Origin: Calothrix membranacea FACHB-236
GTDB lineage: Bacteria > Cyanobacteriota > Cyanobacteriia > Cyanobacteriales > Nostocaceae
Direction: 5' to 3'
Length of the DNA stretch: 64,000 nt
Assembly: GCF_014696315.1 (NCBI RefSeq)
Contig: NZ_JACJPX010000023.1
Location: 1 to 64,000 of the forward strand
Shown here: positions 38,591 to 57,492 of the stretch, piece after piece
Position numbering within the stretch: the stretch's first letter is position 1
Layout of the letters: every line of letters begins with the position of its first letter
Notes under the pieces: generated by a model
What the model saw: the letters and a program-made list of their open reading frames with translations, nothing else
What the model was told of the DNA's origin: nothing
Database searches by the model: none
Program-made: the position numbers and the translations under genes

Positions 38591-38826
38591 GAGAAAGAAT
38601 TTACTCAATATCTTCGCCCTTGCTAAGTAGCTGGTGGGAATTAAATATAAGATGGACGTAGGTTGGGTTGAGGAACGTAGACGCGCAGCGGCTTCCCGCA
38701 GGGTAACCCAACACCCGCATGGGTTACGCTATCGCTAACCCATCCTACAAATAATTATGCCTCCCTACTTAATTAAATAATTTAATTTCTAGAAGTCCCT
38801 AATCTGCGTTGTCAAATTATTTGTAG

Positions 38827-38882
38827 GGGCACGGCACCAGTAAGATAATTTGATATACCAAAAAATTATTAATGCCGTGCCC
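38827..38882. repeat. 56-bp inverted repeat GGGCACGGCA...TGCCGTGCCC
   Basis: Perfect 10-bp arms around a 36-base AT-rich centre that itself contains TTGATATACCAA. A similar GGGGAACGGCATTACCGTTGCC phrase occurs at ~7838-7860. Interspersed hairpin element. Confidence 0.6.
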
Positions 38883-38957
38883 TGAAGCGCGTAACTTATT
38901 TACTGAAATACGATATCGATTTTCAACAAATAGAAAAAATAACTAATAAAATTACTT

Positions 38958-41900
38958 ATGTCTGAGTTCTCTAGAAATCTAGCATTTATCGTCGGCATCA
39001 ATAATTACACAAACGGTATTTCTCCTTTACAGAATGCTGTTGATGATGCCAAAAAGTTAGTTGAAATACTGCGAGAAAAGCATGAATATAAAGTATGGGT
39101 ATGTTTAGACGAAGTAGCTACCCTGAAAAATTTAAATCAACTTTTAGAAAAAACATTAGCAGAACAAGTACGTGAAAATGACCGCTTGCTGTTTTACTTT
39201 GCTGGTCATGGAATAGCTTTAAATGGTGATGATGGCCCAACAGGTTATTTAATTCCCCAAGATGCCAAATTGAATGCTACTGAAACTTATTTGCCCATGA
39301 CCAAATTGCAGGAGTCTTTAGAGAAATTACCTTGCCGTCATTTCTTAGGAATCCTGGACTGCTGTTTTGCAGGAGCATTTCGTTGGTCAAGCACCAGGGA
39401 TTTATTAACTACACCAGAAGTCATCCACAAAGAACGCTATGACCGTTTTATTACCGACCCCGCTTGGCAAGTAATTACTAGTGCTGCTTATGACCAAAAA
39501 GCTTTAGATGCCTTCGTACTCAAATCGGAACGAGGTCAAGTAGGCAATCATTCCCCCTTTGCAGCAGCACTAATAGAAGCACTTGCAGGTAAAGCTGATG
39601 CCTATCCTCCTTCTAGCAATGGTAAACCCCCAGGAGATGGAGTCATCACTGCTACCGAACTCTACTTATATTTACGGGATGCAGTTGAACCAGCCACGGA
39701 AGGAAATCGCCAACGCCAAACCCCTGGAATTTGGCCTTTGAAAAAGCATGATAAAGGCGAATATATTTTCCTGACCCCTGGACATGAACTTAACTTACCA
39801 CCTGCAGAACCTTTGAATGCTAAGAAAAATCCCTACCGAGGTTTGGAATCTTATGATGAGGAACACAGCAAACTGTTTTTTGGCAGAAGTAAACTGGTAG
39901 AAAAATTACATCAGTTTGTGAAAAGTCATCCCTTGACAGTAGTTTTGGGTGCTTCGGGTTCGGGTAAATCTAGTTTAGTCAAAGCAGGATTAATTCCTCA
40001 ACTCCGCCAAGATAATACTGAAAAATGGGAAATCTTAGAACCTATCCGTCCTGGCGAGACTCCTTTACAAGCGTTAAATAATGCTTTAAAAAATGCCCAA
40101 TTACCAGAAATACCAGCCCAAAATCCAGAGCAGAACTTGGCAATGAGTATTGATGCTTGGGCTAAAAATCACCCTAAATCTAAGTTATTACTGTTTATTG
40201 ACCAAAGCGAAGAAATTATTACTCTCTGTCAAAACGAAGATGAACGTAAAGAATTTTTTCAACAAATACTCACAGCAATTAATGTTCATCGCCATAGATT
40301 ACGAGTAGTTTTATCCTTACGTTCTGACTTTGAACCCCAAATCAGAGATGCTGGTTTAAAGTTTGTCCCCACAAACTATAACGCGGGAAATACTGAGCTT
40401 AAAAGTCGTTGGTACAGCGGACGATTTATTGTATCGGCAATGACAAGAGGAGAATTGCGCGAAGCGATTGAGAAACCTGCAGAAGCACGGGTAATGTATT
40501 TTCAGCCCCACGAATTAGTAGAACAATTGATTGATGAAGTAGCGGATATGCCAGGAGCATTACCTCTGCTGTCTTTTGCCTTGAGCGAACTTTATCTGAG
40601 ATATTTAAAGCGACAACGAGATGCAGAAAATAGAGGTGTCACAATTGACAGAGCGCTAACTCAAGCAGATTATCAAGATTTGGGTGGAGTCATCCAATCA
40701 TTGACTCAAAAGGCTGATGAAGAATATGAGGTTTTAGTTCAACAAAATCCTGCTTATGCCCAAATTATCCGTCAAGTAATGTTGCGGATGGTTGCCCTTG
40801 GTGGAGGTGAATTAGCACGCAGACGAGTACCGGAATCGGAACTAGAATATCCGCCTCCTAAACATGATTTAGTTAAAGAAGTAATTGAGCATTTTACCAA
40901 AGCAAGGTTACTGGTTACAGGAGAAGATGCTGAAGGTAATAACTTTGTAGAACCTGCCCATGATGCTTTGGTGCGGGGATGGCAAAAATTGCTGGGGTGG
41001 AAGCAAGAGGATGAACAAAGTGTAATTCTACAACGGAGGTTAACTCCGGCAGCACAGGAGTGGAAAAGTGTTAAAAGCAAGGAACAGCCATCAGTTTTTC
41101 AAGCCAAGGCTGAACCTGTCATTGATTGGTTGGATATTAGTTTCTACTCAGCTGAAAACTTGTTTAACAATGTAAATTCTAAGATTGTCAAACTATGGCG
41201 ACGGACACCGAATCAGCAAGAGCATCCAAAAAATAAACAAGTCCAATTTCTTTGGAATGCTAATCCCTATCTTGATATATTAAATGGAGAACTCAACTCT
41301 AATGAAAATTGGTTTAATCAGTTAGAAGCGGAGTTTGTAAAGCGTAGTGTGCGCCAAAAAAGCCGGAATGCTCGATTACGGAGATTTCTAGCTTTAGGAA
41401 TTTTGGCAGGATCGATTACAGCAGCTATTGTCTTCAATTTTCTACGACAAGAAGCCGTTGCGCGTTTGTTACTAGCTCGCGCTGAGTTAACTAGAAAAGA
41501 AGAAACCACTCCTCTTTCCAGAAGTGTTTTGCTTGCTATAGAAGCTACAAAATTATCCAGTACTGATGAAGCAAATGATATCATCCGTGACGGGTTAGTA
41601 TTACTTGCCCCTCTAGAGGCTCGTATTAGTTTTGAGAACCAACAAACAGAAAGTTATAGTCCAGATAACAAATATCAAGCTATTTTGAGTAATTTAAATG
41701 GTGATTCTGATCAAAAATTTGTGTTTACAAATGATACTTCATGGGAAGTGCAGGTAAAGGATAACACTAGCGGTGAAATAATAGGTACATTACAGCACAG
41801 CCCTGACTCACCAATTGAAAACCTCAGCCCAGATAAGAGATACAAAGTCAACGCGAATCCTGGTAGCAGCACAGCTCAAGTGTGGGAAATAAACGAGAAA

Positions 41901-43340
41901 GGAGAAAATCTACAGCAAGTGGCTCAACTCAGCCATGATGGTGCGATTACAGGTGTTGCCTTTAGCAATGACGGTCAATATATCATCACTGTTAGTGGAG
42001 ATACAACTCTAGGAAATCAAGGTTTCCCAACTACAGGAGATAATACTGTCCGCTTGTGGAAGCTACCACCAGCAGTGACTAGATTTAGTCAAAAACAAGG
42101 CTTACTATCTGCTAAATTCAGCCCGGATGGAAAATACATAGCTTTAGCCAGAGAAGGAGATCAGACAGTGCAAGTATGGGAGGTAGATAGTAACAAAAAA
42201 GTTGCTAGCCTAGTTCATGAAGACTATCAAGGCCTAAACGGTGAATCGTATACCGCTCAGATAGGAGATGTGTCTTTTAGCCCAGATAGCAAATATATAG
42301 CTACTGCTCCCATGCTCCATAGCGGAAATTTCCAGCTATGGGATTTTAATAGTAGACGTAAAATAGCAACCTTTCCGGCTAGCGCTGATCTGGGAGAAGT
42401 TAGTTTCAGCCCTAAAGGAAATTATCTGATCGCAGGCGATATTCGCAGTGGTGACTATCAAGTCTGGAACATTAGCGATCTACAAAATCCGCAACCTGTA
42501 AAAGGCTTGGCCGCAGCAGAAGACAAATTCACTAATATTGCCTTCAGCCCAGATGAGAAGTATATAGCTATAGCCAACCTTGGCGATGGTATAGTTAAGG
42601 TTTTTGATATTGCTAGTGGTAATGTCAAAAAACACACCACTAAAGAAATAGTAACTAAAGTTGCCTTCAGCCCAAATGGTAAATACATAGCATTAGCTGG
42701 AGACAAAACAACCCAATTATGGGACTTAGAAAGCGATCGCAAATTACCCCCTCTCAGTCATGAAGGTGCAATCAACACGATCACCTTCAGCCCTGATGGC
42801 AACTATATTGCAACAGCTAGTGAAGACAAGACCTTCAAGTTATGGGAAGTAGAAAGTGGTAAAAATATATACAGTCGCAGTCACGGAAATGCAGTAAATG
42901 CCATTGCTTTTAGCCCTGATGGAAAATACTTAGCCACTTCTGCAAATACAGACCTCGGTGGTGGGGAAGCAGTAGGGATTTTGAGGGGGGATAATGCAGT
43001 ACGGATATGGGAAGTTAAAAATGGTAAGCAAGTAGCTAGACTTTCTAATGAAGGTCAGATAAACAGGCTTGCCTTTAGCCCAGATGGCAAATATGTGATG
43101 GCAAAACCTTATGTCAGTGAGGAAACTGGGCAAAGCGAGAAAGGAGGAACACCTTCTGCCTACCTGTGGCTGTGGCAAACTGATGACCTAATTCAGCAAG
43201 CCTGTGTCCGTCTCACTCGTAACTTAATATTGGAGGAGTGGAAAACTTACCTTGGGAATCAACCTTACCAAAAGACTTGCGATAACTTACCTGTTCCACC
43301 TAATAAGAATGAGGAGAGTGAAAATGAATTTTACAATTAA
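38958..43340 (+). CDS. Caspase-STAND ATPase-WD40 giant protein (copy 2)
   Basis: A 1460-residue paralogue of the protein at 22931-27478, with high similarity over the first ~800 residues. Caspase-like domain (1-280): His84 in FYFAGHGIAL and Cys136 in GILDCCFAGAF. nSTAND1 NTPase (~295-660): NPYRGLESYDEEHSKLFFG, Walker A GASGSGKSS. Transmembrane helix near 810 (FLALGILAGSITAAIVFNFL). The C-terminal part has about eleven WD40-like repeats (AFSPDGKYIA...LWE) that are much more diverged from one another than in copy 1, with insertions between blades. Thus the enzyme part is conserved while the sensor part has diversified, as expected if each copy recognises a different trigger. It has no partner gene in the same transcript. 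Membrane-anchored, substrates unknown. Confidence 0.9.
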   Translation: MSEFSRNLAFIVGINNYTNGISPLQNAVDDAKKLVEILREKHEYKVWVCLDEVATLKNLNQLLEKTLAEQVRENDRLLFYFAGHGIALNGDDGPTGYLIPQDAKLNATETYLPMTKLQESLEKLPCRHFLGILDCCFAGAFRWSSTRDLLTTPEVIHKERYDRFITDPAWQVITSAAYDQKALDAFVLKSERGQVGNHSPFAAALIEALAGKADAYPPSSNGKPPGDGVITATELYLYLRDAVEPATEGNRQRQTPGIWPLKKHDKGEYIFLTPGHELNLPPAEPLNAKKNPYRGLESYDEEHSKLFFGRSKLVEKLHQFVKSHPLTVVLGASGSGKSSLVKAGLIPQLRQDNTEKWEILEPIRPGETPLQALNNALKNAQLPEIPAQNPEQNLAMSIDAWAKNHPKSKLLLFIDQSEEIITLCQNEDERKEFFQQILTAINVHRHRLRVVLSLRSDFEPQIRDAGLKFVPTNYNAGNTELKSRWYSGRFIVSAMTRGELREAIEKPAEARVMYFQPHELVEQLIDEVADMPGALPLLSFALSELYLRYLKRQRDAENRGVTIDRALTQADYQDLGGVIQSLTQKADEEYEVLVQQNPAYAQIIRQVMLRMVALGGGELARRRVPESELEYPPPKHDLVKEVIEHFTKARLLVTGEDAEGNNFVEPAHDALVRGWQKLLGWKQEDEQSVILQRRLTPAAQEWKSVKSKEQPSVFQAKAEPVIDWLDISFYSAENLFNNVNSKIVKLWRRTPNQQEHPKNKQVQFLWNANPYLDILNGELNSNENWFNQLEAEFVKRSVRQKSRNARLRRFLALGILAGSITAAIVFNFLRQEAVARLLLARAELTRKEETTPLSRSVLLAIEATKLSSTDEANDIIRDGLVLLAPLEARISFENQQTESYSPDNKYQAILSNLNGDSDQKFVFTNDTSWEVQVKDNTSGEIIGTLQHSPDSPIENLSPDKRYKVNANPGSSTAQVWEINEKGENLQQVAQLSHDGAITGVAFSNDGQYIITVSGDTTLGNQGFPTTGDNTVRLWKLPPAVTRFSQKQGLLSAKFSPDGKYIALAREGDQTVQVWEVDSNKKVASLVHEDYQGLNGESYTAQIGDVSFSPDSKYIATAPMLHSGNFQLWDFNSRRKIATFPASADLGEVSFSPKGNYLIAGDIRSGDYQVWNISDLQNPQPVKGLAAAEDKFTNIAFSPDEKYIAIANLGDGIVKVFDIASGNVKKHTTKEIVTKVAFSPNGKYIALAGDKTTQLWDLESDRKLPPLSHEGAINTITFSPDGNYIATASEDKTFKLWEVESGKNIYSRSHGNAVNAIAFSPDGKYLATSANTDLGGGEAVGILRGDNAVRIWEVKNGKQVARLSNEGQINRLAFSPDGKYVMAKPYVSEETGQSEKGGTPSAYLWLWQTDDLIQQACVRLTRNLILEEWKTYLGNQPYQKTCDNLPVPPNKNEESENEFYN

Positions 43341-44105: not shown

Positions 44106-45052
44106 ATAAATTTTATCGTTACCATTTAGACCTACATAGCTTCTAATATATATCCGGTATTCCCTAAATCTAGGTTAATTTTTTTTGCTAGTAGCAGGTA
44201 CTCATTTAATTACCGATGCCTTCATTAGCTGATATCGAATTGGTAAATTAAAACTACTACGAAGTATTAGTAATAGTATGTTGTTAACGTGGGACAGCGG
44301 ATTGCATTCGTTCCAGATGGTTGATGCTGCAATCAAACAAAAAAGTCATATTATTGGTCTTGTGCCAGCCCATGTAAAATTTGAGTTTGTTAAAGCTGGT
44401 GATGGCTTAAGGATGCCTAAAAAATAAATTATTCCAATGTCTGAATTCAACACAACTGTTTCTCTCCCCTGCTCCCTGCCTACATAGCGAAGTCCTTTAA
44501 GCTTTTTGGACTTTTGAGAACCTAAGTGTGAAATATACAATTTAAATGCGTAATAGCTTAACAGCTTACTACCTTTATTTGCTAAACCTATCTGCGGATG
44601 CGATCGCTTCTCTCATGACAGAGGCGATCGCATCCTGCTAAATCTGCATAATTTTTTATTTCTATAACAATTACTAAAAATAACTCTCAACTATTAAGCA
44701 TGATTCTTACCCAAGCCCTGATCTAATCTGGCGCGGCTAAATAAGGACAGCAAGTTACAATGACGTTAAACCTCACTATATCGCATTTAGCATGATATTT
44801 TAATGGCTATAGGGTTAAAGTTACAGAAATCTGCAATTTTTACTCATATATAGCCTGATTTAGCCTTCCGGAATACCTCTAAATCAGTTATTCCTGGCTA
44901 GCTCAAGGTGATTTTTACAAAAATTTATTTGGGACTACTGAAAATAAATCTCAATTAATCTGATAAGATATGCTCGGAGCTTATTGAACATCTATCTCAA
45001 TAAGTATTTTCCATATCACAACTACTTCAAAGCATTCTTAGGAAATGACACG
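44106..45052. other. Intergenic region upstream of the isi cluster
   Basis: About 950 bases with one transposase remnant (44278-44427) and no intact gene. The right-hand ~300 bases must contain the promoter of the first IsiA-type gene. AT-rich runs are present, but I could not identify a Fur box with confidence. A pair of HIP1-containing arms (GATGCGATCGCTTC / GAGGCGATCGCATC) at ~44597-44634 forms an imperfect palindrome. Confidence 0.5.
44278..44427 (+). pseudogene. Transposase remnant (DDE type)
   Basis: A 49-codon frame, MLLTWDSGLHSFQMVDAAIK then QKSHIIGLVPAHVKFEFVKAG, is a typical internal segment of a DDE transposase around the second catalytic Asp (WDSGLHS parallels the D-R/S-G-L/F-Y/H-S motif). 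Neither end of a transposase nor inverted repeats are recognisable, so the element is dead. Confidence 0.6.
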
Positions 45053-46081
45053 ATGACGAGCATGGCTGTGCAAACTCCAGACTCAATTCCTTGGTGGTCA
45101 GGGAACGCTCGATTAACTAATCTTTCGGGGCGATTGTTAGGCGCTCACGTGGCTCATGCCGGCTTAATTGTACTGTGGGCAGGAGCAACAACCTTGTTTG
45201 AAGTCGCCCGGTTTCAAACTTCGCAACCAATGTATGAGCAAGGCTTAATCCTTTTACCCCACTTAGCAACTTTGGGTTGGGGAGTAAGTAGTGGCGGTCA
45301 AATTGTCGATACTCATCCTTACTTTGCGATCGGAGTATTACACCTAATTAGCTCTGCCTTTCTCGGTCTAGGCGGGATTTTTCATGCACTCCGCGGCCCC
45401 GCTATTCTCGAAGAAAAATCTTCCTTTTTTGGCTACAGTTGGCAAGATGCTAATAAAATGACCACAATCCTGGGCATTCACTTAATTTTATTAGGTCTAG
45501 GAGCAGGCTTACTCGTTGCCAAAGCCGTCTTTTTTGGTGGTTTATATGACTCCCATTTAGGAGAAGTGCGAGTTATTGCTCATCCTACTTGGAACTTTGG
45601 CACAATATTTAGCTATTTGCTTGGTGGGCATAAATATTGGATTGCTGGAGTTAACAACCTAGAAGACTTAGTTGGTGGACATATTTGGGTGAGTATTCTC
45701 TGCATTGCTGGGGGTATCTGGCACATTACCACCGAGCCTTCAGATGTTGTGAAAGGCCTCTTTGTTTGGTCAGGAGAAGCTTATCTTGCTTACAGCTTAG
45801 GAGCATTAAGCTTAATGAGTTTGATAGCTGCTTATTTTGTCTCCATCAACACCCTAGCTTACCCTGTAGAGTTTTTTGGCCCAGCATTAAGTATTGAGTG
45901 CGATCGCTTCCCATATTTCCAAAGTGCAGATTTACTATCCTCTCGCGTTTGGTTAGCAAATGCTCACTTTTGGCTGGGCTTTTTCTTCCTCCAAGGGCAT
46001 CTTTGGCACGCCCTGCGATCTGCGGGTTTTAACTTCCGCACCGGCAAAGTTGAGCATCCCACTCGTGGAGAGGTAATTTAA
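45053..46081 (+). CDS. IsiA/Pcb-family chlorophyll antenna protein, paralogue 1
   Basis: A 342-residue CP43-like chlorophyll-a-binding protein (PSII antenna superfamily, six transmembrane helices, no large lumenal loop). Family signatures: [20 protein letters not shown] with chlorophyll-binding His (GAHVAHAG); [38 protein letters not shown]; and the final [18 protein letters not shown]. The start at 45053 (MTSMAVQ) has AGGAAA upstream; the longer frame adds 23 non-conserved residues. It differs in the N-terminus from canonical IsiA (MQTYDNP-type, encoded at 49344) and resembles the N-terminal half of the next gene's product. It precedes the IsiA-PsaL fusion by only 2 bases, so they are cotranscribed. 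Expected to associate with photosystem I under iron limitation; role as antenna or quencher not decidable here. Confidence 0.9.
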
Positions 46082-46083
46082 CT

Positions 46084-47514
46084 ATGACTACAGCAACAAT
46101 CACCCCCCAACAATATGGATGGTGGGCAGGTAACGCTAAGTTTATCAATCTCTCCGGTCGGTTATTAGGCGCACACATTGCCCATGCAGGTTTAATTGTC
46201 CTTTGGGCAGGGGCTATGACTTTATTTGAAATTACCAAATACAACCCTTCCCTACCAATATATGAACAAGGGTTAATTTTATTGCCCCATTTATCAACCC
46301 TGGGATTTGGTGTAGGTAATGGCGGACAAATCATTGATACCTATCCCTATTTCGTCATTGGTGTAGTGCATTTAATCAGTTCGGCTGTACTTGGTGCTGG
46401 CGGTATTTATCACGCCTTGTTAGGGCCAGAAGTATTGCCAGAAACCAATCAATTTCCTGGTTTTTTTGGTTACGACTGGGAAGATGAAGATAAAATGACC
46501 ACCATCATCGGCATTCACCTACTTTTATTAGGTTTAGGTGCTTGGTTGCTGGTAGCAAAAGCCCTCTTTTGGGGTGGTCTTTACGATGGGAAAGTTGCAT
46601 CTGTCAGAGTGATTACCGATCCAACTCTCAACCCTACAAGGATTTTTGGTTACCTCTTTGGTACATTTGGTAATCAAGGAATGGCGGACGTGAATAACTT
46701 AGAAGATGTAGTTGGCGGTCATATTTGGGTAGGTATTCTCTGTTTTGGTGGTGGATTTTGGCATATCTTCACTCAACCTTTTGCTTGGGCAAAAAAGGTA
46801 CTTGTTTGGTCTGGTGAAGCTTATCTATCTTATAGTTTGGCAGCTTTGGCATATATGGGTTTATTGGCAGCATACTTTGTAACTGTCAACGACACCGTTT
46901 ATCCCACTGAGTTTTATGGCCCCTTGGGATTGAGTAGCGCATCAGGGGTGATTTCGGTTCGTACTTGGTTAGCTACTAGCCATTTTGCTTTGGCAATTGT
47001 GTTTTTATCTGGTCATATCTGGCATGCTTTGAGAGTGCGTGTTCTCGAAGCTGGATTAAATTTTGAACAGGGAGTAATTAACTATCTGGATACACCAGAA
47101 TTAGGAAACCTGCAAACCCCAGTTAACGCTTCTAATGTAATCCTGAAATTTTTGGGGAATCTTCCTATTTACCGTGCTGGGTTGTCTCCATTTTCTCGTG
47201 GTTTAGAAATTGGGATGGCGCATGGTTACTTCTTAGTAGGGCCTTTCATTAAATTAGGGCCGTTGCGGAATACAGAATTAGCCAATCAAGCTGGACTACT
47301 AGCAGCGATCGCTCTACTGTTGATTTTATCAATTTGTCTGTGGTTATATGGCAGAGCGTGGTTTAAAGAAGGCATATCTCCACAAGGAGAACTACCAGAA
47401 AATCTGCAAACAGCTAAGTCTTGGAGTCAATTTAATACTGGTTGGATTGTTGGTAGTTGTGGCGGCGCTTTATTTGCTTATTTACTAATCGGCAATAGCA
47501 GTTTGTTCTGGTAA
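46084..47514 (+). CDS. IsiA-PsaL fusion (CP43'-PsaL) protein
   Basis: A 476-residue fusion. Residues 1-325 are an IsiA-type six-helix chlorophyll antenna ([52 protein letters not shown], and [20 protein letters not shown]). Residues ~340-476 are a PsaL-like photosystem I subunit XI domain: [20 protein letters not shown], then [17 protein letters not shown], followed by two hydrophobic helices. Such fusions are known from some cyanobacteria and are thought to dock the antenna to the PsaL edge of PSI, where trimer contacts form. Start ATG at 46084 follows GAGAGGTAATT. Cotranscription with the preceding paralogue (2-base gap) and isiB (28 bases downstream) is likely. Confidence 0.93.
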
Positions 47515-47542
47515 TTTGTTCTTTTAAATATCAGGTGTGAAA

Positions 47543-48055
47543 ATGTCGAAAAAAATCGGTTTATTCTACGGTACACAAACTGGTAAAACAGAATCCGTAG
47601 CAGAAATGATTCGGGATGAATTTGGTGATGGTGTAGTGACACTTCACGACATTTCCCAAGCGGACACTGCTGATTTTGATGAGTATCAATATCTGATTGT
47701 TGGCTGTCCTACTTGGAATATTGGCGAACTCCAAAGTGATTGGGAAGGATTTTTTAGCGAACTAGATGAAATAGATTTTAATGGTAAGATGGTTGCTTAT
47801 TTTGGTACTGGCGACCAGATGGGTTATGCCGATAATTTTCAGGATGCTATCGGTATTTTGGAAGAAAAGATTTCTCAACTCGGTGGTAAGACTGTAGGCT
47901 ATTGGCCGAATGAGGGATACGATTTTAATGAGTCTAAGGCGTTACGAAATGGTAAGTTTGTGGGTTTAGCAATTGATGAGGATAATCAATCTGATTTAAC
48001 AGATGAACGAATCAAAACTTGGGTATCTCAGTTAAAGGCAGAGTTGGGTTTGTAG
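47543..48055 (+). CDS. isiB: Flavodoxin IsiB
   Basis: A 170-residue long-chain flavodoxin, the FMN protein that replaces ferredoxin as electron acceptor of PSI when iron is scarce. FMN phosphate-binding loop YGTQTGKTES (~residues 8-18); second FMN loop GCPTWNIGELQSDW (~55-68, with the stacking Trp); 90s loop YFGTGDQMGYADNF with the stacking Tyr. The long-chain insertion is present. Start ATG at 47543, with AGGTGTG as ribosome-binding site; a GTG two codons upstream is also in frame. It sits 28 bases after the IsiA-PsaL gene in the isi cluster. Confidence 0.95.
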   Translation: MSKKIGLFYGTQTGKTESVAEMIRDEFGDGVVTLHDISQADTADFDEYQYLIVGCPTWNIGELQSDWEGFFSELDEIDFNGKMVAYFGTGDQMGYADNFQDAIGILEEKISQLGGKTVGYWPNEGYDFNESKALRNGKFVGLAIDEDNQSDLTDERIKTWVSQLKAELGL

Positions 48056-48207
48056 TGTGAGCAGTTAAAGTTTTTGTACCCGATGCTGAACCACAGATAC
48101 ACACAGAGAATTTTGTTTTTAAACGCAAAGGGACTCTGGGGTTTAAAACAATCTCTATGTATTTGTGGTTATTTAATTTGCTTAATTTTTGAGGTGGGAA
48201 AGTTTTT

Positions 48208-48960
48208 ATGTCTAATGATATTGATGTTGTGTGGGTCAGTTCTAGCCTTGCATTGCAGCGCTTCGATAAACCGTTACTACAATATATATCGCAATATGTA
48301 AATGTAGCTCAGTGGGAATATCGTCACGGTAAAGATGAAGGTAGCTCGATAGATGAGGCTGTAGCTTTACTGGACGAGTATTTGTCACAGTGTCCCCATC
48401 CCATACATTTAGCAGGTCATGGTGCGGGTGGTGCGATCGCATTAAGCTATGCACAGCGCTATCCGCAAAAAGTGCGATCGCTCACTCTCCTAGCTGTCGC
48501 TTCTCAACCTGCAAATACTTGGCACGCCCATTATTATCTGCAAAGACAACTATTTACCATCAGCCGTGAGCAGGTTTTAGCCATGAGCGTTCGCAATCTC
48601 TTTGGTGAGCAACCGCATTACACGACTAAAAAGTTAGTGGCGGTGTTAAATAAAGATTTAGAACAATCTCCCATATCACACTCTCTGTTCAAGTTAATTA
48701 ATTTACCTGAAGATGGAGTTTCTATGCCCATGATGGTATGTGGTAGCAATAACGATCCAATTGTCAACTCACCTGCTTTACTAGGCTGGTTAAAGTGGTT
48801 TAAAGCTGAAGATTATCTCTGGGAATGTCCAAAAGGGCATCATTTTTTTCATTATTTTTACCCTCAAAAGGTTGGGGAACAAATGTTGAGTTTTTGGCAA
48901 CCATATCATCGACAACTAACATTAGAATCTCAAATACTTTCTCCCAATTTGATAAATTAG
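48208..48960 (+). CDS. isiC: IsiC, alpha/beta-hydrolase-fold protein with altered nucleophile
   Basis: A 250-residue alpha/beta-hydrolase-fold protein at the position where isiC is found in iron-stress operons, 152 bases after isiB. The nucleophile elbow reads LAGHGAGGAIAL: the G-x-S-x-G consensus becomes G-H-G-A-G, so the catalytic Ser is Gly. A C-terminal His (CPKGHHFFHYF) and an acidic residue (GSNNDPIVNS) are still present. This suggests loss of classical hydrolase activity, or that the isiC group does not use Ser. The function of IsiC is not established. Start at the ATG in frame with MSNDIDVVWV; it overlaps an unrelated shadow frame. No signal peptide. Confidence 0.75.
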   Translation: MSNDIDVVWVSSSLALQRFDKPLLQYISQYVNVAQWEYRHGKDEGSSIDEAVALLDEYLSQCPHPIHLAGHGAGGAIALSYAQRYPQKVRSLTLLAVASQPANTWHAHYYLQRQLFTISREQVLAMSVRNLFGEQPHYTTKKLVAVLNKDLEQSPISHSLFKLINLPEDGVSMPMMVCGSNNDPIVNSPALLGWLKWFKAEDYLWECPKGHHFFHYFYPQKVGEQMLSFWQPYHRQLTLESQILSPNLIN

Positions 48961-49343
48961 TAAGTTTTGATTTAGGGGCGTAGATACACCCCTATTAATT
49001 TATTAATTAACTTTATGACAGCGATTAAATTAGCACATCGCTTTTTTGTCGTGCTTAATTTTTTTTACTTTTAATTATTAAGTTTTGTTAAGCAAGTAGC
49101 TAAATAGGAAATATTTTCAATAGTCTAAAGTTGTAGTCACCAAGCTCAACAATTCAGCAGATTGCAAGTTGATGAGGTATAGATAATTGTAAAAGCAAGG
49201 CAGTGCTTTGCTTTTACCCACTTACCTCATTTACCTGAAATACGCTGTAACTTCAACTACTAACTATTGTCTTCACTTTTATTGGTTGAAGTTAAGTAGT
49301 AAATACTTGAATATTTCTGGCAATAACTCATAGCATAGAAGCA
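48961..49343. promoter_or_regulatory. Intergenic region upstream of canonical isiA, with a hairpin
   Basis: No gene. A hairpin GTAAAAGCAAGGC...TTGCTTTTAC (10-bp arms) spans 49189-49217 and is followed by CCCAC without a T-run; it may end isiC transcripts or be a repeat. The rest is AT-rich and likely holds the isiA promoter; no confident Fur box was found. Confidence 0.45.
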
Positions 49344-50378
49344 ATGCAGACATACGATAATCCCAATGTCAAATATGATTGGTGGGTTGGTAATGCCCGC
49401 TTCGCTGATCTCTCTGGCTTATTTATCGGCGCACATGTAGCACAAGCGGCTCTGACAACCCTGTGGGCGGGGGCGTTTACATGGTTTGAAATCTCTCGTT
49501 ACAAACCTGATATCCCTATGGGAGACCAAGGACTCATCTTGTTACCCCATCTAGCCACTTTAGGCTTTGGTGTTGGTGCAGGTGGTCAAGTAATTGATAC
49601 TTACCCTTACTTCGTCATTGGCGCTTTGCATCTAATCTCCTCTGCTGTCCTAGGAGCAGGCGCGCTCTTTCATACTTTTAAAGGGCCGCGCAATTTAAAA
49701 AACACTACTGGTTCGGCTCGTAAATTTCACTTTGAATGGAACGATCCCAAACAACTCGGTTTAATTTTAGGACATCACCTCCTATTTTTGGGGATAGCAG
49801 CTTTATTACTAGTTGGCAAAGCAATGTTTTGGGGCGGACTATACGACGCAACAACTCACGCTGTCAGAGTAGTAAACAACCCCACTCTCAACCCCTTTGT
49901 TATCTACGGCTATCAAACTCACTTTGCTAGTGTGAACAACCTAGAAGATTTAGTTGGTGGTCATATATATGTAGGTTTAATCCTCATTGGTGGAGGGATT
50001 TGGCATATTTTACAAGAGCCGTTACCTTGGGCGAAAAAGCTATTAATCTTTTCTGGTGAAGCAATTCTTTCTTATTCTTTAGGAGGTATTGCCTTGGCTG
50101 GGTTTGTTGCTGCTTACTTCTGTGCAGTCAACACCTTAGCTTATCCTGTAGAGTTCTATGGTGCGCCCCTAGAATTAAAATTTGGTGTCACCCCTTATTT
50201 TGCCGATACAGTCAAGTTAGCCAATGGCGGCTATAGTGCTAGAGCATGGTTAGCTAATGCTCACTTCTTCTTAGCATTCTTCTTTTTGCAAGGTCATCTT
50301 TGGCACGCGCTACGAGCTATTGGTGTTGACTTTAGACAAGTTGAAAAGTCATTGAACGCCATTAGTAGTGCTGAGTGA
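49344..50378 (+). CDS. isiA: IsiA, canonical iron-stress chlorophyll-binding protein
   Basis: A 344-residue protein with the canonical IsiA N-terminus [20 protein letters not shown]. Other blocks: [41 protein letters not shown] (then [11 protein letters not shown]), and [20 protein letters not shown], ending [14 protein letters not shown]. These are hallmarks of the IsiA that forms an 18-subunit ring around trimeric PSI under iron starvation and also quenches light energy. Chlorophyll-ligating His residues lie in GAHVAQA, LPHLATL, LHLISS, GHHLLF, GGHIYV and [13 protein letters not shown] precedes the ATG. It follows the hairpin region, so it may have its own promoter. Confidence 0.96.
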
Positions 50379-50677
50379 ATCAATTTTGGATTTTGGATTT
50401 TAGATTAAAATTTCCTCAATCAAAAATTTCCAATCTAAAGTTCGGTGATTTTGGATTGTATATTTATTTCATGAATAAATTCGCTTGCTTCATATTCCCA
50501 GAGCGATATTAACCTATGAATATTCAATCCAAAATTTAAAATCTAAAATCTAAAATTTGACGTTCAATCCTCAGTTAACAGTTTTGCTCTCACTCTCTAA
50601 GTGATAAGGATAAGGATCGGGTAAGCGTGCTGAGTCTATACAAAACTCAGCACTTTTCTAGAAAGGATGAGGTAAAA
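50379..50677. other. Gap with inverted copies of a TTTTGGATTTTAGATT-type repeat
   Basis: No gene. Runs of the form TTTTGGATTTTAGATT (~50390-50405) and AATTTAAAATCTAAAATCTA (~50537-50560) form a long inverted repeat typical of cyanobacterial intergenic DNA. The ribosome-binding site for the next gene (GGATGAGG) is at ~50665-50672. Confidence 0.5.
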
Positions 50678-51640
50678 GTGGCAATTTCTACTGATAGAAC
50701 TTTTGCAGCAAATACACAATTACCTTGGTTAATTGGTAATGCTCGTTTAACTGATTTATCTGGTCAATTATTAGGCGCACATATTGCCCATGCAGGCTTA
50801 ATTATGTTTTGGACAGGAACAACTACCATCTCAGAAGTAATTCGCTTTCTTCCTGATATATCAATGCATGAACAAGGCTTGATTTTATTACCACACTTAG
50901 CAACTTTAGGTTGGGGAGTAGGCGCTGGTGGACAAGTAGTTGATACCTATCCCTATTTCGTTATTGGTGTACTGCATTTAATCGCCTCTGCAGTTTTAGG
51001 TGCAGGAGGACTATTTCATGTGTTTCGCGCTCCAGCAATTTTATATAATCATGGCGGCAGAGTAGTGAAATTTCATTATGAATGGAATGACCCTAAACAA
51101 TTGAGTTTAATTTTAGGTCATCACTTAATTATTTTGGGCTTCGGAGCATTTTTATTAGTACTAAAAGCCATGTTTTTTGGCGGCATTTATGATACTCATT
51201 TAGGCGATGTCCGCCTCATTAGTAACCCCACTCTGAACCCAGTAACCATTTTTAGCTACCTACTTGGGTTTCAAGATAATCATTGGACTATTTTAGGGCT
51301 AGCCAGTGTGGATAATTTAGAAGATGTCATTGGTGGTCATATTTGGATTGGATGCATTTTAATTGTGGGGGGTATATGGCATATTATTGTACAGCCTTTT
51401 GCTTGGGTAAGAAAAATTTTACCCATAGAAAATGGTGAAGAAATTCTTGCTTATAGTTTGCTAGGTTTAGCATTAATGGCTTGGATTTCTGCTAGCTTTG
51501 TGGGATATAACACTACAGTTTTTCCACCAGAATTTTACGGTTTTGAACGTTTAGTTGCAGCAAATATACAGTTTCTTCTAGGGATATTAGCTTTCTTAGG
51601 TTATGCTTGGCACGCTTGGAGAGCGCGTAGCATTGCCTAA
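50678..51640 (+). CDS. IsiA/Pcb-family chlorophyll antenna protein, paralogue 3
   Basis: A 320-residue member of the IsiA family, probably starting at GTG 50678 (MAISTDRTF) with GGATGAGG five bases upstream; the longer frame from ATG 50627 adds 17 residues that are not conserved. Family signatures: [58 protein letters not shown], and [12 protein letters not shown]. Compared with canonical IsiA the C-terminus is short: after the helix-6 region ([15 protein letters not shown]) the protein ends without the FRQVEK-type tail, and the His in Q-G-H-L-W-H-A is replaced (G-Y-A-W-H-A). So it may bind fewer chlorophylls or interact differently with PSI. Last antenna gene of the cluster. Confidence 0.88.
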
Positions 51641-51752
51641 TTTTTCCAGTTTACTCAACAACAGCTATTCTCAAGTTCCTTCCCCTGCCTGCGGTTCAAA
51701 GTAGTTGGCTGTGGGCACTTTCCTCAAAATTTCTGTGGAGTAATAGATAGTA

Positions 51753-52049
51753 ATGGCGACGATTTTTTATGCATTATCTGCTTGGATAATCATGATTTTA
51801 TTGTTTTGGAGTTTAGGGATAACTCTCAAAAAAGGGATAAGTTTTCTGTGGAAATTACATCAGGTTCCTTGCCATAATTGTGAATTTTTTACTAATGAAT
51901 ATCGTCTAAAATGTACAGTACATCCCAAAAAAGCTTGTTCGGAACAGGCGATTGGCTGTATTGATTTTGAGGCGAAGACTGCTACTTGTAATGCTTGCCA
52001 ACAGGGTCGAAACTGGAAAATAGGCAAGGGAATTTTACCATCAAATTAA
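51753..52049 (+). CDS. Small membrane-anchored Cys-rich protein, unknown
   Basis: A 98-residue protein: an N-terminal transmembrane helix (IFYALSAWIIMILLFWSLGI), then a ~70-residue cytoplasmic or lumenal domain with eight cysteines in the pattern PCHNC, KCTVHPKKAC, GC and TCNAC. Four Cys pairs could bind an Fe-S cluster or zinc, or act as a redox relay. It follows the third IsiA paralogue by 112 bases on the same strand and ends the cluster, so it is probably iron-regulated too. I do not recognise a named family. The Cys clusters plus TM anchor suggest a thylakoid or plasma-membrane redox or metal-binding accessory of the iron-stress response (inference). Confidence 0.65.
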   Translation: MATIFYALSAWIIMILLFWSLGITLKKGISFLWKLHQVPCHNCEFFTNEYRLKCTVHPKKACSEQAIGCIDFEAKTATCNACQQGRNWKIGKGILPSN

Positions 52050-52205: not shown

Positions 52206-53537
52206 TTAATTCAAATTGCTGTATTCTACATCGTGGTCGGGGATCATATCTTCAACATTCCGCAGCACAGGTACAAAAAAGCCTAGCCAACCTACTAGCA
52301 ACATAGCCACAGCACAGATCGCAAATAGTAATGCAATTCCTGCACCAGTACCAGTTCCAAATAATCCTCCCAAAATCCCAACCAGAACCCCCCCTGATTG
52401 CAAAGCTGGTGTAAAAACTCGATCTGCCAATGGGCCTGCTATTAAATAGCCTACAGCAGAAGCGATTTGTAAAAGTAGCGATCGCGTTGCAAAAACTCTT
52501 CCTTGGACATGGGGAGGTACTTTCGCTAGCCAAATAGCATTATCCGAACTACCATTCAAAGGGAAATTTAAAGAAGAACAAAATTGCGCTGGAATCCAAA
52601 CCCAAGGTGTTCTCCCCAAACTAAAAACGATTTTACTAATACCCGCACCCATCATCCCCAATAACACACCTTTGATTTTCCGTCTCAAGCCGCCCCAAGT
52701 TGTAACGACTATCGCGCCTGTGACACCACCAAAACCAGCCGCAGAAGCCAAGGTACCTAGTACTAAAGTATTGTTATGAGTGCGCGATAAAATCATTGGT
52801 GCATAAAGAGAATCCCCAATATCATGGGGTAGCCAAAATAATAAGTTAATTACTAACAATGCTAATAAACTTTTGTGAGTAGTAATATAACGCCAACCAA
52901 ATCCTAAATCTTGCCTAACATTGGCGACACTTTCATTTTTTGTGGTTAGCGGTGCTTGAGGAATACTAACTAATAATAAACTGCTAATTGCTATCACAAA
53001 AGTAAAGATGTCAATTAACCAAATTCCTATAAAACCAATAACTGTGTAAAGATATCCTGCTATAGCAGGGGCAATAATATTACTACCATAACCGGATAAA
53101 AATTGTAGGCTACTAGCGCGGGTATAGTGTTGTTTAGGAATCATCAGCGACACTGATGCTGAATATGCTAAAGACTGAAATTGATTGAAGGTTCCGACAA
53201 CAGCACCAGTGAGGTAAAAGTGCCAAATTTGCAAATTATTAGTTAGATAAAGTAGCAAGATAAAAACTGTGCTGAGGACGGCTATTGTGTCACCAACCAT
53301 CATCAATAACTTACGGTTAAATCGGTCTACAATTACACCACTAATGGGGGTAATAATAATACTTGGTAGTAAACTAAAAAAACCTACTAAAGTCAAGGTT
53401 GTTGCTTTACCTGTAATTTCCCATGCCCAAATTTCAATCGCAAAACTGGTCATGCTGCTACCAATGGTAGAAATTAGTTGACCAAGCCAAACGATCAGGA
53501 AATGACGCATGCTCGCGGAGTTGGGTTGTTGTGTCAT
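52206..53537 (-). CDS. MFS transporter, siderophore-exporter (EntS)-like
   Basis: A 443-residue major facilitator of the MFS_3/EntS type with ~12 transmembrane helices. N-terminus FLIVWLGQLISTIGSSMTSF, the characteristic MFS loop GVIVDRFNRKLLMMVGD between helices 2 and 3, and a mid-protein loop after helix 6. EntS-type proteins export catecholate siderophores; others in the group export macrolides. Its place at the end of a minus-strand run with a siderophore-binding lipoprotein (29 bases upstream) and a TonB-dependent receptor supports siderophore export or release of the siderophore after iron removal (inference). The C-terminal tail is acidic (EDMIPDHDVEYSN). Confidence 0.75.
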   Translation of the reverse strand: MTQQPNSASMRHFLIVWLGQLISTIGSSMTSFAIEIWAWEITGKATTLTLVGFFSLLPSIIITPISGVIVDRFNRKLLMMVGDTIAVLSTVFILLLYLTNNLQIWHFYLTGAVVGTFNQFQSLAYSASVSLMIPKQHYTRASSLQFLSGYGSNIIAPAIAGYLYTVIGFIGIWLIDIFTFVIAISSLLLVSIPQAPLTTKNESVANVRQDLGFGWRYITTHKSLLALLVINLLFWLPHDIGDSLYAPMILSRTHNNTLVLGTLASAAGFGGVTGAIVVTTWGGLRRKIKGVLLGMMGAGISKIVFSLGRTPWVWIPAQFCSSLNFPLNGSSDNAIWLAKVPPHVQGRVFATRSLLLQIASAVGYLIAGPLADRVFTPALQSGGVLVGILGGLFGTGTGAGIALLFAICAVAMLLVGWLGFFVPVLRNVEDMIPDHDVEYSNLN

Positions 53538-53566
53538 TTGGATGTGAAGGAATTACAGTGTAAGGC

Positions 53567-54568
53567 TTATGGGTTATGTGATAGTAAAAGTGATGGTAGT
53601 TGTTCTAATATCAGAGAATTAGCAATAGGTGAGCCAATTACACCACCCCATAAGGTGTAGTCCACAAAATACACTCTTCCCTCTTTCCAGGCTTGTGAAT
53701 TGTGCAATAGAGGATTTTTAGCCCATTTTTCCTTGAGTTCTTCGAGAGGAACTGTATAAGTAGATTTACCATCCCAATTGTCTAGCCAAGTACTAACAAG
53801 CACAATATCTGCATTGAGTTGAGCCAAGGTTTCTAGGTTAATCTGTGGTCTTAAACCTAGCTTTCGTTCTATATCTGGTAGGAATACTGGTTGAAATCCA
53901 ATTTTTTCAAGGAGTTCAATCGTATGTCCATTGTATGCAACCTCTATATAGTTCATTGATTGGCTACAAGTAATACTTAGCACTCGCGGATGGGTGCTGA
54001 CGAGAGGGGCTAATTGATTGCGGACTTTAGCTAGCTGTTGCTGTTGTGCAGTAATTATTGATGGAATATTTTTCTGGCTATTCAGGGCTTTAGCGATAAT
54101 TTTCAGATTTTCCTGCCAATTCTTATCGTTATCGATGAATACAGTTGGCGCGATCGCAGTCAATAATTGATTTTCCTGAGAATTTAAGCCCAGAATTACA
54201 TCGGGTTTGAGTAGAGCCAAAGTTTCTAGGGAAGGACTAGAGCGATCGCCTAAATTAATCGGTTGACTCGTGACCAAATTTCCTAAATAGGGAATCTGTT
54301 GGCTAGGGTTGTCAAATTGGGGCGATCGCACTAAATAAGCATCGGCGTAAGCAGCAGGTTGCTCACCAAGTGCTAGGATCATACTTAGTATTTTTGGTTC
54401 CAGAACCGCTATTTTCTGGGGTTTGCCACAAATCTTGGTTTTTCCCATCGCGTGTTCTACCACTCGACAATCAGCAGATGGTGGTAAGTTGCTTTCTACA
54501 CTGGGTTTATCAGAGATACTACCTTGACAACCTGCGATCAAGATAGCTGTGAGCAAAACCAAGGCCAT
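53567..54568 (-). CDS. Fe(III)-siderophore-binding lipoprotein (FecB/FhuD type)
   Basis: A 333-residue substrate-binding protein of the cluster used for ferric siderophores and cobalamin. Start chosen at 54568 because MALVLLTAILIAGCQGS is a lipoprotein signal with lipobox I-A-G-C; the longer upstream frame reads through a MITE copy. Two-lobe binding-protein features: KIAVLEPKILSMILALGEQP, LLKPDVILGLNSQENQLLT, LAQLNADIVLVSTWLDNWDG and the C-terminal LILEQLPSLLL. It delivers substrate to the FecCD/FecE importer encoded at 59.7-62.6 kb. It lies between the TonB-dependent receptor gene (upstream) and the MFS gene. Confidence 0.88.
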   Translation of the reverse strand: MALVLLTAILIAGCQGSISDKPSVESNLPPSADCRVVEHAMGKTKICGKPQKIAVLEPKILSMILALGEQPAAYADAYLVRSPQFDNPSQQIPYLGNLVTSQPINLGDRSSPSLETLALLKPDVILGLNSQENQLLTAIAPTVFIDNDKNWQENLKIIAKALNSQKNIPSIITAQQQQLAKVRNQLAPLVSTHPRVLSITCSQSMNYIEVAYNGHTIELLEKIGFQPVFLPDIERKLGLRPQINLETLAQLNADIVLVSTWLDNWDGKSTYTVPLEELKEKWAKNPLLHNSQAWKEGRVYFVDYTLWGGVIGSPIANSLILEQLPSLLLSHNP

Positions 54569-54594
54569 GTATTTATATAAAAAAGCGATCGCCT

Positions 54595-54692
54595 TATAGC
54601 ATTTCTCAGTCTGGTGAAGTACGAAATTACCCCTCCCCAACCCTCCCCTTGGTAAGGCGGGTGGGGTGTATTTCATTTGCTTGGGAATTGCA
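54595..54692. repeat. MITE family B, copy 2 (inserted between receptor and FecB genes)
   Basis: Starts TATAGCATTTCTCAGTCTGG and ends TTGGGAATTGCA; matches the unit at 7888-8006 with a ~20-bp deletion in the central hairpin. It is followed by tandem TGCCTCC repeats (~54702-54725). It lies just before the FecB-like start and extends the open frame of that gene by chance. Confidence 0.75.
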
Positions 54693-54734
54693 TTACCTTC
54701 TGCCTCCTGCCTCCTGCCTCCTGCCTTTCTCCCG

Positions 54735-57317
54735 TTAAAACTGAATTGAAAACGAACCAATGACGGTAAAAGGCGCACCAGGATAAATTGTATTTCTGGC
54801 TTGAGATGTTTCATAGTAAGTTTCATTGAAAAGGTTGCGGAAATTTAGGGCTAACCTCCAGTTATCCTGTTTGTAATAAATAGCGGAATCTGTTCGGAAA
54901 TAGCTGGGCATAATGCTTGTATTTTCCACATCGGCGTATCTATCTCCCACATAATAAAGCCCTAAACCAAAACCCAAACCTTTTAAATTACCGCTTTGCA
55001 GTTCATAGGTTGTCCAAAAACTAGCCGCGTGTTCGGGTACATTATCGATGCGATTGCCAACAGGAATTGTATTGTCTTTTGAGGTAATCGCGTCTGTGTA
55101 GGTGTAAGAAGCAATAAGATTCCAACCTGGCATAATTTCGCCGCCAATGTCTAATTCAATACCTCTACTTCTTTGTTCCCCAACCTGCACAGATAAATTG
55201 GGATCGTTGGGGTCGGCAGTGACAACATTAGTTTTGGTAATCTCGAAGGCTGCTAGGGTTGCTGAAAACCGTTCAGTGATATCTGCTTTGATACCAACTT
55301 CGTATTGCGTCCCTCTCGTTGGCTTAAAAGGTTCGTTGCTTCCCGAACGACCAAAAAAGCGATCGGGTTTAAACGATTGAGAATAACTGGCATAGAGAGA
55401 AATCGGTTTAATTGGCTGGTAAACAATACCAACACGGGGGCTAAAGGCTGTGAGAGATTCTTCTTCAGGGGTGCCAAAGTCCTCTTTGCGGTAGAAAGCG
55501 TCAAAACGACCACCAACTAAAAGCTTCAAATTATCTGCAAAAGTAATTTGGTCTTGGAGGTAAATCCCTAGAGTATCTCTTTGAGTTGTGTAGGAGAAAG
55601 TGCTTTCATCAGGTGTAGCAGGGAGTTCTACATCATAATTAGGATTAAAAATATCCAGCAATATAGGATCTGCCACATCGAATGAGGTGTATTTCCAGGT
55701 GTTGCGTCTTAACTCCACCCCAATTAAAGGTTGATGGACAATCGATCCCGTCTTGAACTTTCCAACTAATTCTGTTTGTAGGGTATAGATGTCTCGTTTG
55801 AATTCATCCCGACTCACATAGATGGGGGCAAACTGGTCATCAACTAGGTCATAGCCACCATAAGTATAAGTACCAAATGATTTACCAGATACAAAGGAAA
55901 ACGCATTACGTAGTTGCCAATTATTACTAAATTCATGCTCAAGTCGATAGCCAACCCGAAGAGTACTATCGTTATAAACATGGGGCAAACCAACGAAGCG
56001 ACTAATGGGGACAGGAGCAGGTCGATCGCCAATTGAAGGAAGCCCGCGATCAAAGAGATAATCGTTGTCCTGGTATTCCAAGTCCAGGCTTAAGGTAGTG
56101 CGATCGCTAATATTCCAGGTAACGACAGGTGCAATAAATACACGTTCTAGAAAGTTATAATCTCGAAAACTGCCAGAATTTTGATAAGCCACGTTCAACC
56201 GATATAACAGCGAACCATCATCGGCGAGAGGCCCTGATAAATCAACGCTGGAGCGATAAAAGGCATAATTGCCGACATTAAATTCTGCTGAATAATATGG
56301 GCTACTCAGGGGTTGTTTTGTGACAACATTGATAATTCCTCCTGGTTCAGCCTGACCAAATAGAACAGAAGCCGGCCCTTTGAGGACTTCGATGCGATCA
56401 ATGTTAGCTGGGTCTACCAAAGAATAAAAGTCAGTATCATTAAAACCATTACGGAAGTTACCATCTTGATCGAAACCACGAATTCTATACCCACCCGCAT
56501 CTGTACCTCCATAGTTACCTTGTTTTTCCACACCACTGACATTCTCTAAGGCTTCTTGTATGCGCGTCGTTTTTTGGTCTTCTAAGATTTGACGGGGGAT
56601 TACTTGAATTGAACCAGGAATGTCGCGCACAGGAGTATCAGTTTTAGTCGCAGTTGAGGCGTTTGGTACGCGATATCTGTCTTCCTCTCCCGTTGCTACC
56701 AATTCAATCGGCTCATCTTGTTGGGCTGTGGGTTGTTCTGGAGGTGTCTGGGTTGCTGGTGGTTCCTGGGTTTGGGGTGTTTGGGGTGGTTGTGCTGCTG
56801 TTGTTGCTGATGCTACTTCAAAAATCAACCCTGCATTATCATCAAATAATTCCACCGCAGGTAAAGATTTCTCACCTACTACTGTTAACCGCACAGTAGT
56901 TGCGTCAATATTAGTAACTGTTATCTCAGTAATTCCCGTTATCGGTTTTTCTGAGCGATATGTAAATCTATCTCCGTTGGGTAGTTGTAATTGCCCACCA
57001 GCAATATCTGCAATAAAATTATTTCCTGTACTGCGACTTGTAACTTGCAGCTGCTCCCCTTGGGTTGTTTCTAAAATTACCTCCAAACCTTTGGCTGTGG
57101 AATTGGCTTTTACTCCGGTAATGAGAATAATCGTTTCTTGGGTGGGGGTTGGTGTTTGTGCCAAAATACGAGTGTTGGCGATGGGAACTTTAATTTCCTT
57201 CTTTCCTATTGTCTTGGCTGTTGTGGGATTGGCGAATAAAATTGCGATCGCCAACGGCGCAAACGAAGCGATCGCACTTGTCAGTAGCAAGCCTGGAAAC
57301 AATTTATTTACTCTCAT
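54735..57317 (-). CDS. TonB-dependent siderophore receptor with N-terminal AMIN domain
   Basis: An 860-residue outer-membrane receptor. Signal peptide 1-34 (FAPLAIAILFANPTTAK); AMIN domain (~60-170, beta-rich, ITEITVTNIDATTVRLTVVG), a cell-wall/envelope-binding module common in cyanobacterial receptors; Pro/Gln linker (QPPQTPQTQEPPATQTPP); then a plug domain (VRDIPGSIQVIPRQILEDQK, IRIRGFDQDGNF-type, VLFGQAEPGGIINVVTKQP) and a 22-strand barrel ending in FSIQF with the terminal aromatic residue expected of an OMP. It imports ferric siderophore; specificity unknown. GGGGAG precedes the ATG at 57317. First gene of the minus-strand run receptor-FecB-MFS. Confidence 0.93.
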   Translation of the reverse strand: MRVNKLFPGLLLTSAIASFAPLAIAILFANPTTAKTIGKKEIKVPIANTRILAQTPTPTQETIILITGVKANSTAKGLEVILETTQGEQLQVTSRSTGNNFIADIAGGQLQLPNGDRFTYRSEKPITGITEITVTNIDATTVRLTVVGEKSLPAVELFDDNAGLIFEVASATTAAQPPQTPQTQEPPATQTPPEQPTAQQDEPIELVATGEEDRYRVPNASTATKTDTPVRDIPGSIQVIPRQILEDQKTTRIQEALENVSGVEKQGNYGGTDAGGYRIRGFDQDGNFRNGFNDTDFYSLVDPANIDRIEVLKGPASVLFGQAEPGGIINVVTKQPLSSPYYSAEFNVGNYAFYRSSVDLSGPLADDGSLLYRLNVAYQNSGSFRDYNFLERVFIAPVVTWNISDRTTLSLDLEYQDNDYLFDRGLPSIGDRPAPVPISRFVGLPHVYNDSTLRVGYRLEHEFSNNWQLRNAFSFVSGKSFGTYTYGGYDLVDDQFAPIYVSRDEFKRDIYTLQTELVGKFKTGSIVHQPLIGVELRRNTWKYTSFDVADPILLDIFNPNYDVELPATPDESTFSYTTQRDTLGIYLQDQITFADNLKLLVGGRFDAFYRKEDFGTPEEESLTAFSPRVGIVYQPIKPISLYASYSQSFKPDRFFGRSGSNEPFKPTRGTQYEVGIKADITERFSATLAAFEITKTNVVTADPNDPNLSVQVGEQRSRGIELDIGGEIMPGWNLIASYTYTDAITSKDNTIPVGNRIDNVPEHAASFWTTYELQSGNLKGLGFGLGLYYVGDRYADVENTSIMPSYFRTDSAIYYKQDNWRLALNFRNLFNETYYETSQARNTIYPGAPFTVIGSFSIQF

Positions 57318-57492
57318 CTATCTCCCCACATGAAAACAAACTACTTGTCCGTAATTCCAGCAGACAGCTATTGCAGAAATGTTTTTGGAATTACCGACTA
57401 AAATCTTATTAATAAGGTTTGTCAATAATCTTACGAGAAGTCAAGGAAAAGCTAAAGTCTGGGATGTTCTCCCAACGGAATTTTTTGGTTCT

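Follow-up and report, generated by a model that had tools for sequence, protein, structure and literature searches.

The analysed window, 64,000 nucleotides from Calothrix membranacea FACHB-236 (bases 1–64000 of one contig of the 8.81 Mb host genome), carries at 45053 to 52049 a cluster of four isiA-type antenna genes, one of them fused to psaL, together with isiB, isiC and a gene for a conserved protein of 98 amino acids (aa). All seven genes are uninterrupted open frames on the + strand.

45053..46081, + strand: isiA gene 1, IsiA3 type, 342 aa; probably the All4003 orthologue
46084..47514, + strand: isiA-psaL fusion (gene 2), 476 aa; Anabaena IsiA2 / Leptolyngbya IsiA4 type, All4002 orthologue
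47537..48055, + strand: isiB, flavodoxin; NCBIfam FldA match
48208..48960, + strand: isiC, alpha/beta-hydrolase-fold protein (Pfam PF00561); Gly at the nucleophile Ser position
49344..50378, + strand: isiA gene 3, canonical IsiA1 type, 344 aa; All4001 orthologue
50678..51640, + strand: isiA gene 4, IsiA5 type, 320 aa; open frame from 50627, short stretch between helices 5 and 6
51753..52049, + strand: conserved 98-aa protein; N-terminal hydrophobic stretch and Cys-rich part, syntenic in relatives

The Pfam PSII/CP43 domain (PF00421) was found in all four IsiA-type proteins and the PsaL domain (PF02605) in the fusion only (residues 331–472, E-value 3e-59). The open frames and these domains bear out the three stand-alone IsiA-type genes and the single IsiA–PsaL fusion that a first-pass annotation had proposed. 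isiB and isiC lie, as also stated there, on the same strand as the isiA genes (+), and genes 1 and 2 are indeed separated by 2 bases (end at 46081, start at 46084); the 98-aa gene, inside the range of that annotation, had been omitted from it. Across the host genome, the PF00421 family comprised the four cluster genes and two more, interpreted as psbC (on C85) and the gene for CP47 (on C54), with 62% and 27% identity to the window proteins. One further, separate psaL was present besides the fusion, as is needed by a model in which the fusion competes with PsaL. The product of isiB scored 262.2 bits against FldA (cut-off 202), and its single match in the host genome was the window's own copy. 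For gene 4, the GTG at 50678 (320 aa) is probably the start rather than 50627, in agreement with 9zjt chain 3.

The core of the cluster is already known: for clusters of the same kind, both descriptions and protein structures are available from close relatives. Anabaena sp. PCC 7120 (hereafter Anabaena 7120; All4000–All4003; 7y3f, 9zjt; PMC9938196) has four paralogues with one-to-one, near full-length matches, and its fusion likewise has 476 aa and shares the diagnostic residues and ligand differences that were checked (PMC9938196). In contrast, its isiB (alr2405) is numbered far from the isiA genes (PMC4005646), whereas in the window the fusion is separated from isiA1 by isiB and isiC. The cluster nsp37450–nsp37510 of Nodularia spumigena CCY9414 (2013, PMC3610870) likewise combines four IsiA/PsbC-like genes, a PsaL-domain fusion among them, with isiB and a gene for an alpha/beta hydrolase; in the excerpt of that paper no essential difference was seen, and the 98-aa end gene is unmentioned. 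Leptolyngbya sp. JSC-1 (isiA1–5; Shen et al. 2016, cited in PMC9938196, PMC12090762 and PMC12214013) also has a PsaL fusion in an isiA family induced by iron starvation, but with five genes, cpcG2 in the cluster and the fusion named IsiA4.

Assignment and divergence of the four paralogues

The window proteins were paired with known paralogues by phmmer against the PDB. Gene 1 matched 9zjt chain 2 over its full length (692.9 bits), the fusion aligned with 476/476 residues to 7y3f chain 1 (985.7 bits) and to 9zjt chain 1 likewise, gene 3 gave full-length matches to 7y3f chain 4 (753 bits) and 9zjt chain 4 (748.8 bits), and gene 4 matched 9zjt chain 3 with residues 2 to 319 of 320 (627.1 bits). 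The paralogue-diagnostic residues of PMC9938196 that were checked all agreed (gene 1 T46, fusion M45, gene 4 T49), and F45/W47/K279/G281/V282/T283 were all present in gene 3. By sequence, gene 1 is thus assigned to the IsiA3 type, the fusion to IsiA2, gene 3 to IsiA1 and gene 4 to IsiA5. Genes 1, 2 and 3 scored above the cut-off (335 bits) of the NCBIfam IsiA/Pcb antenna model TIGR03041, at 431.7, 419.4 and 489.3 bits. In Anabaena 7120, all4000, all4002 and all4003 are tabled as PsbC homologues and all4001 as IsiA (PMC4518582, PMC4390870), and PMC3610870 identifies the fusion as All4002; from the gene order we infer that all4003 is IsiA3 and all4000 IsiA5.

In 9zjt, the fusion, the IsiA3 type and the IsiA5 type are each represented by a single chain and the IsiA1 type by four. 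The PsaA sequence of this entry is identical to that in 7y3f and 6jeo. Among the 60 of 86 PsaL matches listed, the stand-alone Anabaena PsaL sequence occurred in entries 6jeo, 6k61 and 9wd5, not in 9zjt, which was found there only via the fusion. A literature search on 9zjt found no IsiA paper under that entry name. This entry bears on an alternative in which genes 1, 2 and 4 encode a CP43-like extra antenna of photosystem II and only gene 3 serves photosystem I (PSI). Such a role would suit the annotation of the Anabaena 7120 counterparts as PsbC homologues (PMC4518582) and the closer identity of genes 1, 2 and 4 to the host psbC (58–60% vs 51% for gene 3). However, 9zjt combines orthologues of all four proteins with PsaA, the fusion bears a PSI subunit, and the large lumenal loop of CP43, present in the host psbC, is missing from all four; the alternative is accordingly regarded as highly improbable.

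Phylogeny, one of the checks suggested in the first-pass annotation, was assessed by placing 97 antenna domains in a quick maximum-likelihood tree, using psbC as root and support from the Shimodaira–Hasegawa-like approximate likelihood ratio test. It resolved four separate, old clades, three of them firm (fusion 99, IsiA1 99, IsiA5 100) and one, IsiA3, at 83; the IsiA1 and IsiA5 clades join at 98. Each window protein groups with Nostoc/Anabaena orthologues in its own clade, hence the duplications predate the sampled families. Extra paralogues standing apart from IsiA1, near CP43, have been reported before (PMC12090762, PMC3610870).

Ligand positions were compared in an alignment of 34 IsiA3, 36 fusion, 20 IsiA1, 17 IsiA5 and five psbC rows. 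Seven columns (31, 96, 110, 145, 207, 221 and 321, gene 3 numbering) are His in every row reaching them in all groups; conserved His columns of this family bind chlorophyll. The column of IsiA1 Q34 holds Q in 19/20 IsiA1 rows and H in 33/34 IsiA3, 32/36 fusion and 17/17 IsiA5 rows. Column 144 is H in 19/20 IsiA1 and 16/17 IsiA5 rows and I in 34/34 IsiA3 and 34/36 fusions. Q316 is kept in 34/34 IsiA3 and in all 19 IsiA1 rows that reach the column, and in none of the 17 IsiA5 or 36 fusion rows. The His of the last helix (33/34 IsiA3, 19/19 IsiA1) is replaced by Q in 17/17 IsiA5 rows and 7/36 fusions, and GHLWH has Y or F in place of its first H in ten of the 17 IsiA5 rows, with H in the remaining seven. 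The stretch between helices 5 and 6 measures 20 residues in all 17 IsiA5 rows, the window included, against medians of 32 in fusions, 40 in IsiA3 and 44 in IsiA1. The four proteins would be specialised by the PsaL domain, by changes of chlorophyll ligands and by the helix 5–6 stretch. These differences, carried across orthologues, name concrete residues to inspect in 9zjt, above all for IsiA5.

Separate clades and differing ligand patterns fit the proposal of the first-pass annotation that the proteins are not redundant. The opposite view, that the four genes are dosage copies and any IsiA can take any place, draws on the CP43-type core and the many ligands common to all four, and on a table in which all four Anabaena 7120 genes change together under peroxide and nitrogen step-down (PMC4518582). 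Yet the window paralogues are only 51–61% identical to each other, against up to 97% for an orthologue from another genus, and the differences track the paralogue, as with the IsiA5 stretch and the I or H of column 144 in IsiA3 and IsiA1; redundancy is therefore considered very unlikely.

The altered end which the first-pass annotation had seen in the third stand-alone paralogue (gene 4) was found in a helix 5–6 stretch 24 residues shorter than the canonical IsiA median and in the changed ligands of the last helix, the helix itself being kept. An AlphaFold2 model of gene 4 has six long helices, the last at 290–319 (mean predicted local distance difference test score 79.4; first 27 residues below 50), and its nearest solved folds were CP43 and IsiA chains (Foldseek, VIA-align); six helices are expected in genes 1, 2 and 3 by homology. 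Read as damage, the short stretch, the missing tail, the changed ligands and a TIGR03041 score of 326.9 bits would make gene 4 a decaying copy. This is hardly credible, since the frame is open, 16 other rows (58–90% identical) share the 20-residue stretch, and the Anabaena 7120 orthologue is present in 9zjt.

The distribution search covered 242 genomes of the order, host included. A match spanning the antenna and PsaL parts of the fusion (reaching query residue 468 or beyond) was obtained in at least 66/242, weak matches falling outside the listing; in G231 the match reached residue 379, where the contig ends. Frames of 517–538 aa with partial matches (G070, G083, G104, G125, G155) were considered as a different fusion and dismissed, as tblastn showed a diverged PsaL part in all five. 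For IsiA5, a gap separated matches at or below 2e-113 from CP43-type matches at 1e-104 and weaker; 39/242 genomes lay above the gap and matched as far as the protein end, 30 of them among the 66 fusion genomes (G046, where a contig end cuts the match, was left out of the IsiA5 count).

The order gene 1, fusion, isiB, isiC, gene 3, gene 4, 98-aa gene is kept in seven related genomes (L003, L004, L005, L006, L008, L027, L029), and the 2-base gap between gene 1 and the fusion is identical in 7/7 related genomes with the same order (L006/L028 for the seventh). The stretch examined in L007 held only the fusion, gene 3, gene 4 and the 98-aa gene; in more distant genomes the cluster is turned or split, and in L031 it is split in two directions and lacks the PsaL part. 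The fusion clade also contains some copies devoid of PsaL. Those of two relatives, G203 and G240 (95 together), nest within the fusion group (90), which suggests that the PsaL part was lost there. The PsaL-less IsiA genes that two relatives have within the fusion group of the tree lie at L030 8915–9946 and L031 9141–10106, with loss of PsaL probable. In L033, L034 and L055 the antenna part of the fusion is present a second time, without PsaL, next to the fusion; this may be the five-gene arrangement described in Leptolyngbya JSC-1.

Placement around photosystem I

The PSI supercomplex purified from Anabaena 7120 under iron starvation contained all four IsiA proteins (PMC9938196); detection of canonical IsiA only, the outcome named in the first-pass annotation as speaking against its proposal, is thus not what was seen in that strain. 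The fusion orthologue occupies position 1 in 7y3f, its C-terminal PsaL-like domain takes the PsaL site and keeps PSI monomeric, preventing oligomers, and the PSI monomer carries six IsiA along its PsaA side (PMC9938196). IsiA1 stands at positions 4 and 5, and three positions are given without paralogue assignment (PMC9938196). In 7y3f, chain 1 corresponds to the fusion, at position 1, and chain 4 to an IsiA1, so the 9zjt chain labels 1, 2, 3 and 4 may follow the same order around PSI. The ligand differences reported for the Anabaena 7120 fusion (H34, I144, S309; PMC9938196) are identical in the window fusion, which also has all four residues separating Anabaena 7120 IsiA2 from PsaL (W426/F427/N451/W454). 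Across the 36 fusions, F427 occurs in 27, W426 in 4, N451 in 10 and W454 in 9, so these residues are no mark of the whole fusion family. By analogy with its Anabaena 7120 orthologue, the window fusion would replace PsaL and prevent PSI oligomers.

We consider it very probable that the cluster is an iron-stress antenna cluster of the Anabaena/Nodularia type, whose fusion replaces PsaL on a PSI monomer that carries a mixed IsiA antenna. Upon iron shortage, the Fur repressor would be released and the cluster expressed, and flavodoxin from isiB would substitute for iron-containing ferredoxin, a replacement that is established knowledge. The PsaL-like domain of the fusion would take the PsaL site, so that PSI oligomers do not form and one IsiA unit is anchored on the PsaA side, as in the Anabaena 7120 orthologue. 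From this anchor, IsiA3-, IsiA5- and several IsiA1-type units would line up around the PSI monomer, a composition taken from the orthologues (9zjt, PMC9938196).

Several points weigh against this interpretation. The functional data are those of orthologues, and the places of IsiA3 and IsiA5 around PSI are inferred. The clade that holds gene 1 (IsiA3, clade A) reached only 83% in the quick tree. Gene 4 fell below the TIGR03041 cut-off, with model positions 1–263 of 321 aligned, and was therefore filed by its orthology to the IsiA5-type chain of 9zjt and by the tree. The published 19-base FurA consensus, at three mismatches or fewer, had no match upstream of the cluster. The distinct positions around PSI claimed in the first-pass annotation accordingly stand for the fusion and IsiA1, from their orthologues (PMC9938196), and less firmly for IsiA3 and IsiA5; that a terminus sets the position is shown for the PsaL domain alone. 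The cluster adds another clean example of a known system: through a gene fusion a photosystem subunit is replaced, and the PSI oligomer becomes a monomer with a mixed antenna.

Regulation, accompanying genes and surroundings

Further features bear on regulation:

44940..45005, + strand: conserved block upstream of gene 1, probable promoter with a FurA-box-like site
45440–45617, 46477–46654, 49737–49914, 51083–51260, − strand: Rfam IsrR matches opposite the four isiA genes

The upstream block holds positions common to all eight aligned upstream regions. Its FurA-box-like site (44987–45005) lies at approximately the location of the FurA site predicted 67 bases before the start of Anabaena all4003 (PMC4005646), the window carrying CTCAATAAGT at about that distance from gene 1. 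The only strict consensus match in the window, at 7508, lies outside the cluster, and 14 of 100 shuffled sequences had at least one. A shorter pattern derived from the footprint itself matched exactly at 44950 and with one mismatch at three other places; being circular as evidence, it was set aside. As the strict scan was negative, regulation is argued from position and from the Anabaena 7120 data. A shorter conserved block precedes gene 3, with little conservation between genes 3 and 4; these conserved blocks suggest two transcription starts, before gene 1 and before gene 3. In N. spumigena, one start was mapped 83 bases before the first gene, with a long operon suggested, and an antisense start was mapped at +426 near the first gene (PMC3610870).

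The Rfam IsrR model (RF01419) matched opposite all four isiA genes with 125.6–145.6 bits, and the host psbC scored higher (166.8). The matches were accordingly set aside as a sign of special regulation: since psbC outscores the isiA genes, RF01419 follows the coding sequence and gives no evidence for IsrR. The model seems not to be specific for isiA, which is a warning for annotation, as it also marks psbC.

Two parts of the cluster are less described, namely the missing serine of isiC and the 98-aa protein encoded at the 3′ end. The nucleophile elbow, GHSxGG in alpha/beta hydrolases, reads GHGAGG in IsiC; its serine position is Gly in 14/21 covering rows, the window included, and Ser in 7/21. 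Of the usual triad, Asp and His are apparently kept (by eye), and IsiC is, judging from its residues, probably a non-hydrolytic family member. A limited literature search on isiC with isiA found no published account of the lost serine. The 98-aa protein had no match in Pfam, NCBIfam or the PDB. It follows the IsiA5 gene in close relatives with its Cys-rich pattern conserved, and its family occurs in 222/242 genomes, often in several copies (four matches in the host genome), so broadly that mere presence says little and only the location is telling. In Anabaena 7120, all3999, a protein without known function, was affected together with all4000–4003 in a sigC mutant (PMC4390870); by its position, we guess that it is the orthologue of the 98-aa protein. 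It is conceivable, if rather doubtful, that the cluster includes a helper set which aids loading or insertion of the mixed antenna, in which a serine-less IsiC would bind rather than cut a ligand (lipid or chlorophyll tail) alongside the one-helix, Cys-rich protein. No description of such a set was found in a limited literature search.

Iron-siderophore transport genes lie beside the cluster at 52206–62615, namely an MFS transporter, an Fe-siderophore binding protein, a TonB receptor with an AMIN domain, an AraC-type regulator, two FecCD permeases and an ABC ATPase. Two caspase-domain genes precede the iron-stress region at 36450–43340, the second being a fusion with a STAND NTPase and WD40 repeats.

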